The position numbers and the translations under genes are program-made. From NCBI RefSeq assembly GCF_030812915.1, contig NZ_JAUSTQ010000005.1, positions 1 to 64,000 on the forward strand: a stretch of DNA of 64,000 nt, written 5' to 3'. Positions 18,921 through 58,417 of the stretch are shown in pieces. The DNA is from Alkalibacillus salilacus (GTDB lineage: Bacteria > Bacillota > Bacilli > Bacillales > Alkalibacillaceae). The notes beneath the pieces were generated by a model. That model ran no database searches and was not told where the DNA came from. It saw only the letters and a list, made by a program, of their open reading frames with translations. Each line of letters begins with the position of its first letter. Within the stretch, counting starts at the first letter, position 1.

Positions 18921-20456
18921 TTATTTATTTTTTAGCAATAAGACAATCCCTATTAAAATCGCAATCGTTACCACTAAACCAATGATCACTGAACTAGTTA
19001 AGGCAAATGCTAAATAGCCAAGAATTGTTGATGTTGCCGCAATTAAGGCATACGGAATTTGCGTGACTATGTGATCAATGTGGTTCGAACCTGCACCAGT
19101 TGATGACAGAACTGATGTATCAGAGATTGGTGAACAATGGTCACCAAAGACTGAACCAGCTAAAACGGCTGATAGTGCCGGAACTAATAACGTCGGATCT
19201 AATTCAACAGCCATAGAGCCTGCAATTGGTAACATTAAACCAAACGTCCCCCATGAGGTTCCTGTCGCAAATGCAGTGACACCCGCAATTAAGAAAATCA
19301 TCACGGGTAAGTAGGCAGCATTTAGGCTTGCCTCTTCGACGATTCCTACTAAGTAATCATCTGTTCCAATAGCTTCAATAATCGCAACAATCATCCAAGC
19401 TAATATTAAAATGTAGACAGCTGGAAGCATCGCTTTAATACCTTCCCATGTGACAGAGAAGAAATTCGTTTTCTCACCTGGCTGCACCGCATATAAGATC
19501 ATCGATAATATGACGGCAAGTGTCCCACCTAATACAAGCGATAAATTCACATCGGTATTCGCAAAGGTCGAAACCAGCGTTACCCCATCTTCGCTTCCTT
19601 GAATACCTGTAATTACCATCATGGTAATGGTTGTTACCAATAGAACTAACAATGGTAATAGTAGGTGATAAACTCGTCCATGTCCGTTTTCTTTAACGCC
19701 ACCTTTTAAGTCGCCTGGTACATCAGGATTCTCTGGGTCAATTAATGTTCCAGATGCTTCTGCACGTTGCTCATGTTTTTTCATTGGACCAATTTCAAGT
19801 TTAAAGAAAATAGCTAGAAAGACGAGCATGACAGCTGCAATCGCATAAAAGTTATACGGAATCATTTGAACAAACGTCGTTAAAGCTGATAATTCGGTTA
19901 ACTCATGCGTTGAAATAATCGTTGCAATAATTCCGATAATATAAGCACCCCAACTCGAAATCGGTGTTAATACCGTAACAGGGGCTGACGTTGAATCAAT
20001 TAAATAAGCTAACTTCGCGCGCGAAACATTTTGACGGTCTGTAATGGGACGGGAAACTTGACCGATCGTTAGACTGTTAAAATAATCATCAATAAAAATG
20101 GCTACACCTAAAAGGCCAGTTGTATACTGTGAGCCTTTACGTGTTCGTACTCGATTAACTGCCCACTGACCGAATGCCTGGGCACCTCCAGTAGCTGTTA
20201 AGAATGCGATTAAGATACCTAATAGTAATAAAAAGATGATGAGCTGTACACTCCAGATATCCCAAGCACCTTCAGCGTAAAATAAATTTTGAAATGAAAA
20301 CCAAATTCTTTCCAGTGTTCCTAATATGTCATAACTTTCCACCATAAGCGCACCCACAACAATACCAGCACCTAGTGATAACAAGACTCTTCTTGTTAAG
20401 AGCACGAGTAAAATCATGATAAATGGTGGAAGCAATGACCAAAATGTTTCCTCCAT
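18921..20456 (-). CDS. NhaC-family transporter under lysine-riboswitch control (probable lysine transporter)
   Basis: A 511-residue membrane protein with 11-12 helices of the NhaC/ion-transporter superfamily. Recognisable are IFIDDYFNSLTIGQVSRP near 119-136 and FATGTSWGTFG near 397-407, both typical of the family. Family members exchange Na+/H+ or amino and organic acids. The leader is a complete lysine riboswitch, so lysine is the probable substrate; NhaC-type genes behind L boxes have been proposed as lysine transporters (LysW). Direction of transport cannot be decided, although repression by lysine favours uptake. AAAGGAGG precedes the ATG. A charged loop near 225-260 separates the two halves. 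Confidence 0.85.
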   Translation of the reverse strand: MEETFWSLLPPFIMILLVLLTRRVLLSLGAGIVVGALMVESYDILGTLERIWFSFQNLFYAEGAWDIWSVQLIIFLLLLGILIAFLTATGGAQAFGQWAVNRVRTRKGSQYTTGLLGVAIFIDDYFNSLTIGQVSRPITDRQNVSRAKLAYLIDSTSAPVTVLTPISSWGAYIIGIIATIISTHELTELSALTTFVQMIPYNFYAIAAVMLVFLAIFFKLEIGPMKKHEQRAEASGTLIDPENPDVPGDLKGGVKENGHGRVYHLLLPLLVLLVTTITMMVITGIQGSEDGVTLVSTFANTDVNLSLVLGGTLAVILSMILYAVQPGEKTNFFSVTWEGIKAMLPAVYILILAWMIVAIIEAIGTDDYLVGIVEEASLNAAYLPVMIFLIAGVTAFATGTSWGTFGLMLPIAGSMAVELDPTLLVPALSAVLAGSVFGDHCSPISDTSVLSSTGAGSNHIDHIVTQIPYALIAATSTILGYLAFALTSSVIIGLVVTIAILIGIVLLLKNK

Positions 20457-20573: not shown

Positions 20574-20589
20574 GAAGTCGGTTATTTCT

Positions 20590-20765
20590 CGATCAGTAGC
20601 TCCCCGTCTCTTGTACGAGAGTGTATTCTTTATTCAAAAATACACCAATACTTAAAGTCTGACACTCTAAGTACTTCGGCATTCAACCCTTTCACACATG
20701 GTCATCGTTGTCATCCTCCCACATGTTACTGATGCTAAATGCACCTCTACCTCATCGATCGATAA
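20590..20765 (-). ncRNA. Lysine riboswitch (L box) aptamer
   Basis: On the minus strand the 5' part reads GAGGTAGAGGTGCAT and is followed by AGTAACATG, GTGAAAGGGTTGAATGCCG and, near the 3' end, GGGGAGCTACTGATCG. These segments match the conserved L-box core in the right order and spacing, including the GAAAGGG...GCCGAAG junction. The 3' strand pairs back to the 5' strand to form P1. A hairpin of low conservation (P4/P5) lies between. It ends just ahead of the terminator, so lysine binding should stop transcription of the NhaC-family gene. Confidence 0.92.
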
Positions 20766-33948: not shown

Positions 33949-34788
33949 TTATTCGCTAACAGGAACGATTGCTCCATCATATTCTTCTTCCATGAATGAT
34001 TGAATTTCATCTGAACGAAGAACCTCAACTAATGTTTGTAATGCTTCAGAATCTTCATTTTCTGAACGTGTTGCAATGACATTAGCGTATGGTGACTCAG
34101 AACCTTCAAGTATTAACGCGTCTTCAGTTGGGTTTAAATCACCTTCAATCGCGTAGTTCGTATTGATTGCCACTAAGGCGTCGGATTCACGCTCATAGTT
34201 TTCGACTAAGAAACCTGCCTCAATGCTTGCATCAAAGTTTAAGTTTTTCGGATTTTCAACGACATCATCCACTTCTGCCGTTACAGGATTGACTTCTGAA
34301 TCTAACTTAATTAGCCCGTTCTCTTGTAATAATGCAAGAACACGTCCGTGGCTTGCAACTGAACGACTCATAATAACGTCAGTACCTTCTTCAATATTGT
34401 CTACGTCATCAATATTTTTCGAATAAATACCGATTGGTTCGATATGGATACCTCCGAGACTAACGAAATCATAACCTGCTTGCTCTTTTTGATCCTCTAA
34501 ATAAGGAATGTGTTGGAAAAAGTTAGCGTCAATTGAACCGTCTGCTAACGCTTCGTTTGGTAAAATATAATCTTGGAACGTTTCAATCGTTAAATTAATA
34601 CCTTCTTCTTCTAGTTGTGGCTTAGCTTCTTCTAATATTTCCGCGTGTGGAACTGGTACTGCTCCAACTGTTAATTCAACTGGTTCATCACTGTCACTGT
34701 TTCCTCCACCTTCAGCTTCACCTGTACCACAAGCTGCTAATACGGCGACTAATAATAATGACGTTACGAATAAAATACCTTTTTTCAT
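33949..34788 (-). CDS. metQ: Methionine ABC transporter substrate-binding lipoprotein MetQ
   Basis: NlpA/MetQ-family lipoprotein of 279 residues. The lipobox LLVAVLAAC puts the acylated cysteine at about residue 20, followed by a flexible Gly/Glu linker. The start at 34788 (MKKGILF) is chosen from AAGGGGAG seven bases upstream and from the signal peptide; the longer frame adds an implausible N terminus. It binds methionine outside the membrane for the MetNP importer. It is last in the operon. Confidence 0.95.
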   Translation of the reverse strand: MKKGILFVTSLLLVAVLAACGTGEAEGGGNSDSDEPVELTVGAVPVPHAEILEEAKPQLEEEGINLTIETFQDYILPNEALADGSIDANFFQHIPYLEDQKEQAGYDFVSLGGIHIEPIGIYSKNIDDVDNIEEGTDVIMSRSVASHGRVLALLQENGLIKLDSEVNPVTAEVDDVVENPKNLNFDASIEAGFLVENYERESDALVAINTNYAIEGDLNPTEDALILEGSESPYANVIATRSENEDSEALQTLVEVLRSDEIQSFMEEEYDGAIVPVSE

Positions 34789-34846: not shown

Positions 34847-35515
34847 TTATCGATGATCAATACGTTTAGAAATCCAATCACCAATGAATTGGAAAATAAA
34901 TACAATAACAACAATGAAGATTGTACAAGCTAATACCACATCGTTGTTTCGACGTTGGAACCCTTCCATGTAGGCAAGGTCTCCTAAACCTCCAGCACCA
35001 ATGACACCAGCCATGGCAGTATAACTGATTAACGCAATCGCCGTTACGGTTATACCTGATATTAACGCTGGCATTGATTCTGGCAATAACACTTTGAAAA
35101 TAATCGTTCTTGTTTTAGCTCCCATAGCTTTAGCCGCTTCAATCACTCCCTTATCAACTTCTCTTAAGCCAATCTCAACAAGTCGTGCATAGAACGGCGC
35201 TGAACCAACAATTAATGCTGGTAATGCAGCGTTAGGACCTCGAATCGTACCAAGTAAAAAGTCCGTAAACGGAAATAAGAGTAAAATTAAAATAATAAAC
35301 GGAATCGCGCGAGACACGTTCACGATGATTGCGACAATTGAATTCAATGATTTGTTTTCCCATAGATTCCCTTTATTCGTTAAATAAAGTAATAACCCTA
35401 GTAGGATTCCAAGAATAAATGTGCCCAATACAGAAATGAATGTCATATATAAGGTTTCATAAGTAGCAACCCACATCTTTTCCATATCAACGTTTGGAAA
35501 TATATTAGTCAACAT
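34847..35515 (-). CDS. metP: Methionine ABC transporter permease
   Basis: A MetI-type permease of 222 residues with five membrane helices. The EAA coupling loop is visible as EAAKAMGAKTRTIIFKVLLPES (about 131-152). It is called metP in B. subtilis (metI in E. coli). The ATG at 35515 is six bases after GAGGTGA and its frame overlaps the end of metN by 11 bases. Confidence 0.95.
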   Translation of the reverse strand: MLTNIFPNVDMEKMWVATYETLYMTFISVLGTFILGILLGLLLYLTNKGNLWENKSLNSIVAIIVNVSRAIPFIILILLLFPFTDFLLGTIRGPNAALPALIVGSAPFYARLVEIGLREVDKGVIEAAKAMGAKTRTIIFKVLLPESMPALISGITVTAIALISYTAMAGVIGAGGLGDLAYMEGFQRRNNDVVLACTIFIVVIVFIFQFIGDWISKRIDHR

Positions 35516-36533
35516 GATCAATCACCTCGACTCCCACACCAGTTGTCTTAACGTAATTCATCACGTCTTCAATCGTTTCTGGCTCTCCTTGAAATTCAAC
35601 ATAAAGCGTACCGTAAGCACCTTCTTGAGTCGGTGAGATCGAGCCTTGTAGGATATTAACGTTGATATCGAATTGTTTCGACACATCACTAATTAATGCC
35701 CGTTTCGCATTATGTCCTACAAAGTGTAACTTCACTACTTTTGAACGCTCATCTGATGTAATAAAGTCCTTTAACTCTTCTACTGATCCTTCTTGAGGAT
35801 TTAATTGTTGAACAAATCGTTTCGTGGTTTTCGATTGCGGGTTCATAAATACATCTAAGACATCCCCCTGTTCAACCACATGTCCTTGCTCCATCACGGC
35901 TACACGATGACAAATCTTTTGGATCACATGCATTTCATGTGTAATGAGTATAATAGTTAAATCAAGTTTCTCATTAATCGATACAAGTAAATCCAATATG
36001 TCATCAGTTGTCTCTGGGTCTAAAGCTGACGTTGCTTCATCACACAACAATACTTTAGGGTCGTTCGCGAGTGATCTCGCAATTCCAACACGTTGCTTTT
36101 GACCACCACTTAATTGGGATGGATAGGAATTTTCACGTCCTTTAAGCCCAACTAATTCGATGAGTTCAAGTACTTTTTCCTCACGATTAGCCTTTGGAAT
36201 ACCTGCAATTTCTAATGGAAATGCAATATTCTCATAAACTGTTCTCGACCAAAGTAGATTAAAGTGTTGAAAAATCATTCCGATTTTCTGTCGTTCAAGA
36301 CGTAATTGCGCCTTACTGAGATCCGTCATATCTTGGCCGTTTAATATGATTTCACCATCTGTCGGATCTTCTAGGCGATTGATTAATCGGACGAACGTAC
36401 TTTTTCCTGCACCGCTATAACCAATGACACCATATATATCACCTTTCTCGATATCAATGGATACATCATCAACGGCTTGAACAGTATGATCTTTTGTTTT
36501 AAAGGTTTTAGATAAATTATTTATCGTTATCAC
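35505..36533 (-). CDS. metN: Methionine ABC transporter ATPase MetN
   Basis: Importer ATPase of 342 residues. Walker A is GYSGAGKST (about 38-46), the signature LSGGQKQR (about 140-147) and Walker B VLLCDEATSALD (about 159-170). The C-terminal NIL domain (about 260-340) is the methionine-sensing regulatory part that causes trans-inhibition. The start is the GTG at 36533, nine bases after AAGGAGG; an upstream in-frame ATG lies inside the riboswitch terminator and is not credible. Under control of two SAM riboswitches in series. Confidence 0.95.
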   Translation of the reverse strand: MITINNLSKTFKTKDHTVQAVDDVSIDIEKGDIYGVIGYSGAGKSTFVRLINRLEDPTDGEIILNGQDMTDLSKAQLRLERQKIGMIFQHFNLLWSRTVYENIAFPLEIAGIPKANREEKVLELIELVGLKGRENSYPSQLSGGQKQRVGIARSLANDPKVLLCDEATSALDPETTDDILDLLVSINEKLDLTIILITHEMHVIQKICHRVAVMEQGHVVEQGDVLDVFMNPQSKTTKRFVQQLNPQEGSVEELKDFITSDERSKVVKLHFVGHNAKRALISDVSKQFDINVNILQGSISPTQEGAYGTLYVEFQGEPETIEDVMNYVKTTGVGVEVIDHVD

Positions 36534-36556: not shown

Positions 36557-36598
36557 ATAAAAAACCTTTCTGCTCCAATAAGAGAACAGAAAGGTTTT
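36557..36598 (-). terminator. Terminator of SAM riboswitch 2
   Basis: A 15-bp stem with one mismatch (36561-36575 with 36584-36598) is followed by TTTTTTATT on the minus strand, just upstream of the metN RBS. Confidence 0.9.
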
Positions 36599-36617
36599 AC
36601 GAATTAACCAATTGTTC

Positions 36618-36727
36618 TCTTATCTATCAAAGCAAAAAATACTTTGAAGGAATTAGCACCTATCATGCCTCATGCATGACGGTTGCTGGGTTTCGCAGGG
36701 CCTGTCCCTCCACCTCTCTGGATAAGA
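36618..36727 (-). ncRNA. SAM-I riboswitch 2 (proximal to metN)
   Basis: A full S-box aptamer. On the minus strand it reads TCTTATCCAGAGAGGTGGAGG, then GGCCCTGCGAAACCCAGCAA, then GGTGCTAATTCC, and closes P1 with GATAAGA. All conserved core elements, including the kink-turn GAGGGA region and the pseudoknot loop, are present. Followed by its own terminator. SAM binding should stop transcription into metNPQ. Confidence 0.95.
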
Positions 36728-36747
36728 GATTTTATTCCATTATTCAT

Positions 36748-36775
36748 TTTATACGTTAATCTGTTAATGTGTTAA
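36748..36775 (-). promoter_or_regulatory. Possible promoter between the two SAM riboswitches
   Basis: TTAACA (36775..36770), a 16-bp spacer and TATAAA (36753..36748). It would start transcripts that pass only through riboswitch 2. Confidence 0.5.
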
Positions 36776-36779
36776 TCAC

Positions 36780-36810
36780 AAAAAAACTTTCTTGTAAGAA
36801 CAAGAAAGAG
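36780..36810 (-). terminator. Terminator of SAM riboswitch 1
   Basis: CTTTCTTG/CAAGAAAG stem with a six-base loop (36787-36808), followed by seven T on the minus strand. Confidence 0.88.
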
Positions 36811-36820
36811 GTTTACTCAA

Positions 36821-36927
36821 TCTTATCTTACAATGCTTTCACATTGCAGGAATTAGCACCAATCATGTACACTACATGACGGTTGCCGGGCTTCACAGGG
36901 CCTTCCCCTCCGCCTCTCTGGATAAGA
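36821..36927 (-). ncRNA. SAM-I riboswitch 1 (distal)
   Basis: A second full S-box aptamer. On the minus strand it has TCTTATCCAGAGAGGCGGAG, GGCCCTGTGAAGCCCGGCAA and GGTGCTAATTCC, closing with GATAAGA. It differs from riboswitch 2 at many positions, especially in the P3 and P4 stems, while the core is kept. So both are under selection rather than a recent duplication. It has its own terminator and upstream promoter. Confidence 0.95.
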
Positions 36928-36956
36928 AGTTCATTATTCAACTTGCGATAAATTGT

Positions 36957-36985
36957 ATGTTAGCATAGGAATAGATAAACGTCAA
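36957..36985 (-). promoter_or_regulatory. Main metNPQ promoter
   Basis: TTGACG (36985..36980), a 17-bp spacer and an extended -10, TGC TAACAT (36962..36957), 30 bp upstream of riboswitch 1. Confidence 0.65.
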
Positions 36986-37846: not shown

Positions 37847-38203
37847 TTATGACCCCTTTAAATATTTTACCTTAACTTTAAAATTAGCTGCTTGTAAAAT
37901 AGAGGCTACCACATGTTCAGGTGTATCTTCAACTTGGCGGTATTGAGTTTCAGTAAATAAATTCTCTGCGTGAGATAACTCCTGATTCAACTGCTTCCGT
38001 AATTTCCGGCCAGGTTCATCTTCATCAGTAAAAATATAAACGTCACGGTCTAATAAATCATAGTTTTCAATCAGTTCATCTAAAGCATATACACCAATTG
38101 TACCAAACGTACACAGAATAGCTTCCTCTTGTTCTAAGACACGATTGAGTTTCTGGCGATCTTGTTTACCTTCTACAATAATTAAACGAGATAATGGTTC
38201 CAT
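37847..38203 (-). CDS. yusF: Stand-alone TOPRIM protein (YusF-like)
   Basis: A 118-residue protein made of one TOPRIM domain. The catalytic-type Glu is in IIVEGKQDRQKL (about 8-19), and the DxD pair in IFTDEDEPGRKLRK (about 66-79). It resembles RNase M5-type small primase-like proteins. Nucleic-acid cleavage or binding is inferred. The ATG at 38203 is five bases after AGGTGA. Confidence 0.87.
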   Translation of the reverse strand: MEPLSRLIIVEGKQDRQKLNRVLEQEEAILCTFGTIGVYALDELIENYDLLDRDVYIFTDEDEPGRKLRKQLNQELSHAENLFTETQYRQVEDTPEHVVASILQAANFKVKVKYLKGS

Positions 38204-38281
38204 CTTATTCACCTAAATTTGATCTAAGTTAGAAAAGACTGATCTCTTGATGAAGATCAGTCTTGAGAGTGATTTATTTAC

Positions 38282-58022: not shown

Positions 58023-58060
58023 AGTCACAGTCATCAAACGTTTTTTTAACCATATGCATA

Positions 58061-58417
58061 TGGAGATGGCGGGACTCGAACCCGCGTCCAGAGACATCGC
58101 CACTCAGGCTTCTACGAGCGTATTCGATTTATTGTCATTCGCCGATTCTTCAGCCAACCGACAGGCTTCCGAATGGCTAGTCTGATTAATCTCTTCTAAA
58201 GACCTCAGACGGTGGCCTTTAGCGTAGCCCGCTTCATTTTGAGACCCTTCAATCTACCACACGGGCGATGGCAGGAAGGATCCTGTAGCCTGCTTTACGC
58301 AGCTACAGCGAAATCGTTTTGTTTGCCAGTTATTATTAACTGAATGACGTTTAACGAGTCGTCACCTCGACTCGCTACCTGAGCTCGATCTATCCCTGTC
58401 GAATCCAAAACATCCCC
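58061..58417 (-). ncRNA. ssrA: tmRNA (SsrA)
   Basis: Rescue RNA for stalled ribosomes. On the minus strand the 5' end GGGGATG pairs with CATCTCC near the 3' end to make the acceptor stem, and the T arm GGACGCGGGTTCGAGTCCCG is clear. The tag frame at 58327..58295 encodes GKQNDFAVAA and a stop. The mature 357-nt RNA ends at the discriminator A; CCA is not encoded in the genome and must be added afterwards. It lies beside smpB, as in B. subtilis. Confidence 0.96.

Follow-up and report, generated by a model that had tools for sequence, protein, structure and literature searches.

Leaders with two SAM-I riboswitches are already on record. According to the parts of the sources consulted here, 164 doubles and one triple have been catalogued and are expected to act pseudo-cooperatively (PMC9481103), and SAM-SAM pairs make up 41-42% of the tandem cases at metN, metI and metQ of Bacillota (PMC12452182). 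For classes such as TPP and AdoCbl, tandems are described as far rarer than for glycine, at <1% of leaders (PMC2258182). Bacillus methanolicus has one SAM element before metNPQ and a SAM element together with PyrR before metN1, and the consulted part of its transcriptome paper gives no SAM-SAM arrangement there (PMC4342826). No mention of Alkalibacillus together with a riboswitch was found in the literature searched. Here we describe the metNPQ leader of the salt-loving Bacillus relative Alkalibacillus salilacus, in which two complete SAM-I transcription attenuators very probably act one after the other on a single transcript, making OFF control tighter and modestly steeper (pseudo-cooperative).

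The window analysed, 64,000 nt from one end of contig NZ_JAUSTQ010000005.1, contains two matches to the SAM-I model RF00162 on the minus strand, upstream of metNPQ and 91 nt apart. The first (distal) aptamer is located at 36820-36928(-) (84.7 bits, E 1.4e-18 by cmscan) and the second (proximal) at 36617-36728(-) (91.3 bits, E 1.7e-20). Both exceed the gathering score of 44.4 and span model positions 1-108 of 108; E-values of this size (1e-18 and 1e-20) rule out chance matches. A preliminary description of this DNA had claimed two complete SAM-I aptamers with a full core and had called for a covariance-model search of the leader; both aptamers score as SAM-I, and the coordinates it gave match those of cmscan to within a base. 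The core boxes GCAACC and GGUGC are present in both units and, across 21 leaders of the family (see below), in all 42 tandem aptamers, as is the GAG of J1/2, read from the alignment output. These three boxes surround the SAM pocket and touch the ligand. By covariance score and core boxes both units belong to the SAM-I class, from which we infer that both bind SAM. The aptamer structure is backed by strong covariation over 78 aptamers, in an alignment that was itself fitted to the model. A reading of the distal aptamer as a spermidine variant was rejected, its J1/2 and P3 boxes being canonical; the variant class carries changes in J1/2 and the P3 internal loop, according to the consulted part of PMC10853860. 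The whole assembly (30 contigs, 96.64% complete) has six RF00162 matches, and the two in the window are the only pair. The other four are single, on other contigs, and precede genes that we take, from their translations, to be metX, a second metN, a metE-like gene and metK; the second metN is also a 50% tblastn match. As for small ORFs, the leader contains only short frames, mostly overlapping an aptamer.

The operon behind the leader comprises metN, an ABC ATPase with a NIL domain (35505-36533(-), ABC_tran + NIL, with a GTG start behind AAGGAGG), the metP/metI permease (34847-35521(-), BPD_transp_1) and metQ, a lipoprotein of the NlpA family (33949-34788(-), Lipoprotein_9/NlpA). Its earlier naming as metNPQ is right by this domain content; the three proteins match best to the NCBIfam models for MetN, MetI and MetQ, with scores below the curated cut-offs. 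It should be noted that the consulted part of PMC12452182 assigns the metN-metI-metQ operon under tandem SAM control to metal-ion transport, seemingly on the basis of COG names; the NIL and NlpA domains of the window operon fit methionine import. Elsewhere in the window, a lysine riboswitch (20589-20757(-), RF00168, 117.2 bits) precedes a gene (18921-20456) whose product belongs to the Na+/H+ antiporter family PF03553 and is possibly, by this association, a lysine transporter. There is also a tmRNA gene (58058-58417(-), RF00023, 206.1 bits) and, at 37850-38212(-), a small stand-alone Toprim-domain protein, weakly like ribonuclease M5 (below the model cut-off), whose gene adjoins a thioredoxin-like gene and gcvH.

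The double leader is widespread among the relatives. With the best metN match per genome taken as the counterpart, all 22 family genomes have a metN (58-97% identity outside the window), and two RF00162 matches precede it in 21 of them (the window, 13 [L008-L020] and seven more). The exception is G007 (locus L126), with a single aptamer before its best metN. The preliminary description had asked for this search of relatives and had called the arrangement unusual; on the contrary, two aptamers are the rule for metNPQ in the family, and tandem SAM-I leaders had already been catalogued (PMC9481103 and PMC12452182, in the parts consulted). Its view that the pair is no assembly error is borne out, since the tandem recurs in 21 of the 22 genomes, and we reject that origin. 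The family genomes have 14 further metN copies, eight of which were fetched as loci (L129-L136), each with one aptamer. In five, the aptamer lies 89-107 nt before metN; in L129, L130 and L133, it lies ~1,050-1,080 nt before the gene with ~300-340 nt further upstream covered, making them weaker controls. In a survey of named genomes we took the best 80 metN loci of a longer list, of which 76 had at least 900 bases upstream and four were too short to judge. Within 800 bases, the 76 loci showed two aptamers in 10 cases, one in 50 and none in 16 (model R1). The ten tandem loci belong to Alkalibacillus (3), Allobacillus (2), Filobacillus, Tenuibacillus, Salinibacillus, Salirhabdus and Melghiribacillus, and in every case Rfam recovers both aptamers; by MetN identity, the nearest single-aptamer relatives among these best 80 loci are Gracilibacillus and Saliterribacillus. 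The named set and the 22-genome family set overlap, so that their counts are not additive; aptamer positions relative to metN are identical in L109, L110 and L112 (the window's genus) and in Alkalibacillus L027, L028 and L029. In L112 (G004), the metN match has one internal TGA stop and the tandem leader is intact.

A predicted transcription-attenuating platform, i.e., a terminator and an antiterminator that competes with it by recruiting the P1 3' strand, is present in both units. In the distal one, the antiterminator (36794-36831(-)) would form by pairing of 36831-36821, the P4/P1 3' strand, with 36805-36794 (-16.6 kcal/mol, z -4.7, the best of 200 shuffles equalling the observed energy), and the intrinsic terminator (36780-36808(-)) consists of a hairpin at 36808-36787 with 9 pairs and -8.9 kcal/mol, followed by 7 U in the run 36786-36780. 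In the proximal unit, the antiterminator (36578-36623(-)) would pair 36623-36613 with 36588-36578 (-16.0 kcal/mol, z -4.7), and the terminator with its U tail (36559-36597(-)) has a longer hairpin (36597-36562, -19.5 kcal/mol), absent from the list of the terminator pattern scan. The z-scores come from 200 letter shuffles of the terminator stretch. Over the 21 family leaders, a terminator is found behind every tandem aptamer (42/42), with median energies of -12.7 (distal) and -19.1 (proximal); the distal hairpin is weaker than its proximal partner in 18 leaders, equal in one and stronger in two. Thus, of the two terminators that had been called strong, the proximal one deserves the word and the distal one is moderate. 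The antiterminator scores z < -2 in 19/21 distal and 19/21 proximal units, the misses being L121 and L125 (distal) and L114 and L121 (proximal; L121 is printed as -2.0).

Conservation of these pairings bears on whether one of the units could be a leftover of a duplication that has lost its function, with the other S box alone doing the work. For the proximal unit we used 21 platforms (20 distinct). Four terminator pairs are changed on both sides, a number reached by 4 of 500 shuffles; the antiterminator keeps 98.6% of its cells paired, with a covariation no better than that of shuffles (165/500). For the distal unit the set was limited to 14 of the 21 platforms (L107-L120), leaving out seven whose terminators differ in sequence. 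Here, the terminator has 90.9% of cells paired and three pairs changed on both sides, and the antiterminator has 96.1% of cells paired, with one pair going from C-G to U-A in five sequences and one of its 11 pairs failing in six of the 14. Counted as pairs, these distal changes are within the range of shuffles (147/500 for the terminator, 456/500 for the antiterminator), which counts against two working switches in series, and the single antiterminator change may be one event. Counted as cells, the antiterminator is above all 500 shuffles and no shuffle reaches the 11 cells of the distal terminator; both terminators have more cells changed on both sides than any of the 500. Because the terminator cells exceed the shuffles and the antiterminator has its C-G/U-A pair, the distal unit seems to be kept by selection. 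The weaker distal hairpin in most leaders and the single aptamer of G007 are what a relic might leave behind, but all 21 distal aptamers pass the RF00162 cut-off and the pairing of the distal platform is kept over the 14 relatives, and we give almost no credence to this explanation.

The candidate promoters bear on how the two units would be transcribed. Putative promoter P1 (36957-36985(-), TTGACG-N17-TAACAT with an extended -10 TG) is located 28 nt before the distal aptamer (shuffle p 0.016). A promoter-like pair was computed 18-45 nt before the distal aptamer in all 21 tandem leaders (shuffle p 0.000-0.050), with an extended -10 in 19 and a full consensus in L127 and L128. A consensus scan of the whole leader region gave six promoter-like sites against a shuffled mean of 4.1, a count not above chance. 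The second promoter that had been proposed between the units, TTAACA-N16-TATAAA (36748-36775(-)), is indeed present when the sequence is read directly, but it is weak and doubtful as a promoter, its -10 being without the final T, and similar elements are not a general feature of the family. The scan requires T at the end of the -10, so TATAAA goes unlisted; its alternatives in the window are TTAACA-18-TAAAAT and TTAACA-17-AATAAT. The latter has a shuffle p of 0.038, ends only 10 nt before the proximal aptamer and has no TG.

An internal promoter in the window is possible, and it would create two depths of control, with transcripts from promoter P1 meeting both switches and those from the internal one only the proximal switch, for a less tightly controlled supply. 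This explanation, rather doubtful to us, can be compatible with two switches in series. It draws on four of the 21 leaders (L121, L125, L127 and L128) that have a near-consensus promoter between the units, in spacers of 150-205 nt (shuffle p 0.000-0.034), and on TTAACA-N16-TATAAA itself, seen by eye in five of the six leaders of the genus (the window and four of the five others). Moreover, the p of 0.038 in the window and that of 0.018 for the best scanned candidate of its near twin L108 are no worse than some of those four cases, and both count against the series. However, the candidates of the window are poor in the respects given above, the best scanned candidate is at shuffle level in four of the six genus leaders (p 0.46-0.57), and L111 reads CTAATA (by eye) at the -35. 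Besides, the gap from the distal U run to the proximal aptamer is just 20-26 nt in five of the 21 leaders, too short for a promoter lying entirely between the units (one overlapping the distal terminator aside). The inter-unit scan of L113 begins too early and includes the terminator, making that row unreliable. Together with the upstream pair in 21/21 leaders, these short gaps count in favor of a single transcript, and the promoter layout supports, at the level of sequence, both units being transcribed together.

The same short gaps bear on another proposal, i.e., that the main product of the distal unit is a short, terminated RNA of ~170 nt that responds to SAM and has its own function, whether in addition to attenuation of metNPQ or in its place. 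SreA and SreB of Listeria are SAM-responsive terminated RNAs of this kind. The distal unit has its own promoter-like pair and its own terminator, and such an RNA must arise whenever this terminator works; literature on a trans-acting SAM riboswitch RNA in Listeria also exists. Yet the conserved distal antiterminator would be needless for a constitutively terminated RNA, and the RNA as the sole role fits poorly with the five leaders without room for a promoter between the units, in which the proximal unit is probably reached by readthrough. We therefore see this as a highly improbable main function, although the RNA may arise as a by-product.

The aptamer tree was built from 78 sequences (42 tandem, one family single, eight from the second operons and 27 from 26 of the 80 named loci) and is poorly resolved, with 112 columns kept and 45 of 74 inner branches open. 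Most proximal aptamers fall, unresolved, among single aptamers of other Bacillaceae. In one group (95/98), 14 distal aptamers are joined by one outside aptamer and five from second operons; the seven remaining distal ones share a second group (99/92) with the proximal aptamers of L127 and L128. In these two loci of one genus, distal and proximal aptamers group together (99/91) and are 91-92% identical, which suggests homogenisation or a separate duplication. A recent duplication of the window pair was rejected: its two aptamers agree at 89 of the 106 positions aligned (84% identity), and they are not sisters by the AU test (p 0.0235). The preliminary description had excluded a recent duplication, and this stands as far as the pair in the window is concerned. 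When all 12 aptamers from its genus are placed in a single clade, the AU test does not reject the tree (p 0.42), and hence a duplication no older than the genus remains compatible with the aptamers alone. Neither was a single clade of all 21 distal aptamers rejected (p 0.067), nor one of 19 without L127 and L128 (p 0.154). The simplest reading, which the alignment is too short to prove, is that an ancestral leader with one unit gained its distal unit early in the history of the family, perhaps from another S box of the genome.

In the series arrangement that we favor, transcription would start from promoter P1. At high SAM, the distal aptamer would keep its P1 helix, the antiterminator would not form and a fraction of the polymerases would stop at the distal terminator. 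Those reading through would then face the proximal SAM-I unit, which would act independently and has the stronger terminator, and transcription of metNPQ would require passage through both. For units that respond in similar SAM ranges, the readthrough fractions should multiply, so that leaks of 10% and 10% leave 1%. By this arithmetic, repression rises from 10-fold to 100-fold and the 10-90% response span narrows from 81-fold to about 40-49-fold (49-fold at 10% leak each), but the gain in steepness is lost (span 81) if the SAM responses are 10-fold apart. Tightness would therefore be the surer benefit and steepness a conditional one. Escape from two SAM-dependent terminators in series had been predicted in the preliminary description; it is the best-supported reading and agrees with the "pseudo-cooperative" action of PMC9481103, in its consulted part. 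Counted against independent units, the minimum free energy structure of the whole leader has 23 cross-unit pairs in the window (0 to 46 over the 21 leaders, with such pairs in 20 of 21), and the two units may thus fold non-independently according to the model. We judge this calculation uninformative, because it ignores co-transcriptional folding, as well as SAM. The inequality of the terminators could also mean that the distal switch, being leaky, filters transcription in a graded way and releases a short SAM-responsive RNA before a tight proximal switch takes over, a reading that we hold to be quite unlikely. If true, the unequal pair, which nearly the whole family retains before a single met transporter operon, would not merely steepen the SAM response but shape or broaden it.

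Whatever the use of the pair, the family offers a natural series on what a second riboswitch for the same ligand buys: 21 of 22 genomes with the tandem before this operon and one with a lone unit there, second met operons with single units (where examined), leaders with a near-consensus internal promoter and leaders without room for one. No view of riboswitch types is changed by it. Two riboswitches whose aptamer class points to a shared ligand stand in one leader, each with its own predicted platform. The window leader is a further, well-conserved example of the catalogued tandem SAM-I arrangement, a kind already known because both double SAM-I leaders and SAM-SAM pairs at metN, metI and metQ are in print. 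As far as the consulted parts of these papers go, the doubles of PMC9481103 have the same two complete units in one leader and the same predicted pseudo-cooperative OFF action, with no difference in kind, and the SAM-SAM tandems of PMC12452182 share the aptamer pair, the operon and the phylum Bacillota; the consulted part of the latter paper treats the operon as metal-ion transport and does not describe the platforms, the promoters or the conservation in the window's family. Tandem TPP riboswitches (PMC9481103, section 11, in part) likewise have two same-ligand units in series and a steeper response, with another ligand and aptamer class. A glycine-type dual aptamer sharing one platform does not match, since each aptamer has its own terminator in 21/21 tandem leaders. 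The SAM-I/AdoCbl tandem of Bacillus clausii metE (PMC2258182 and PMC9481103, both in part) is, like the window leader, a case of independent attenuators in series in one leader, but there two ligands are combined in NOR logic, whereas the leader described here would read one ligand twice.
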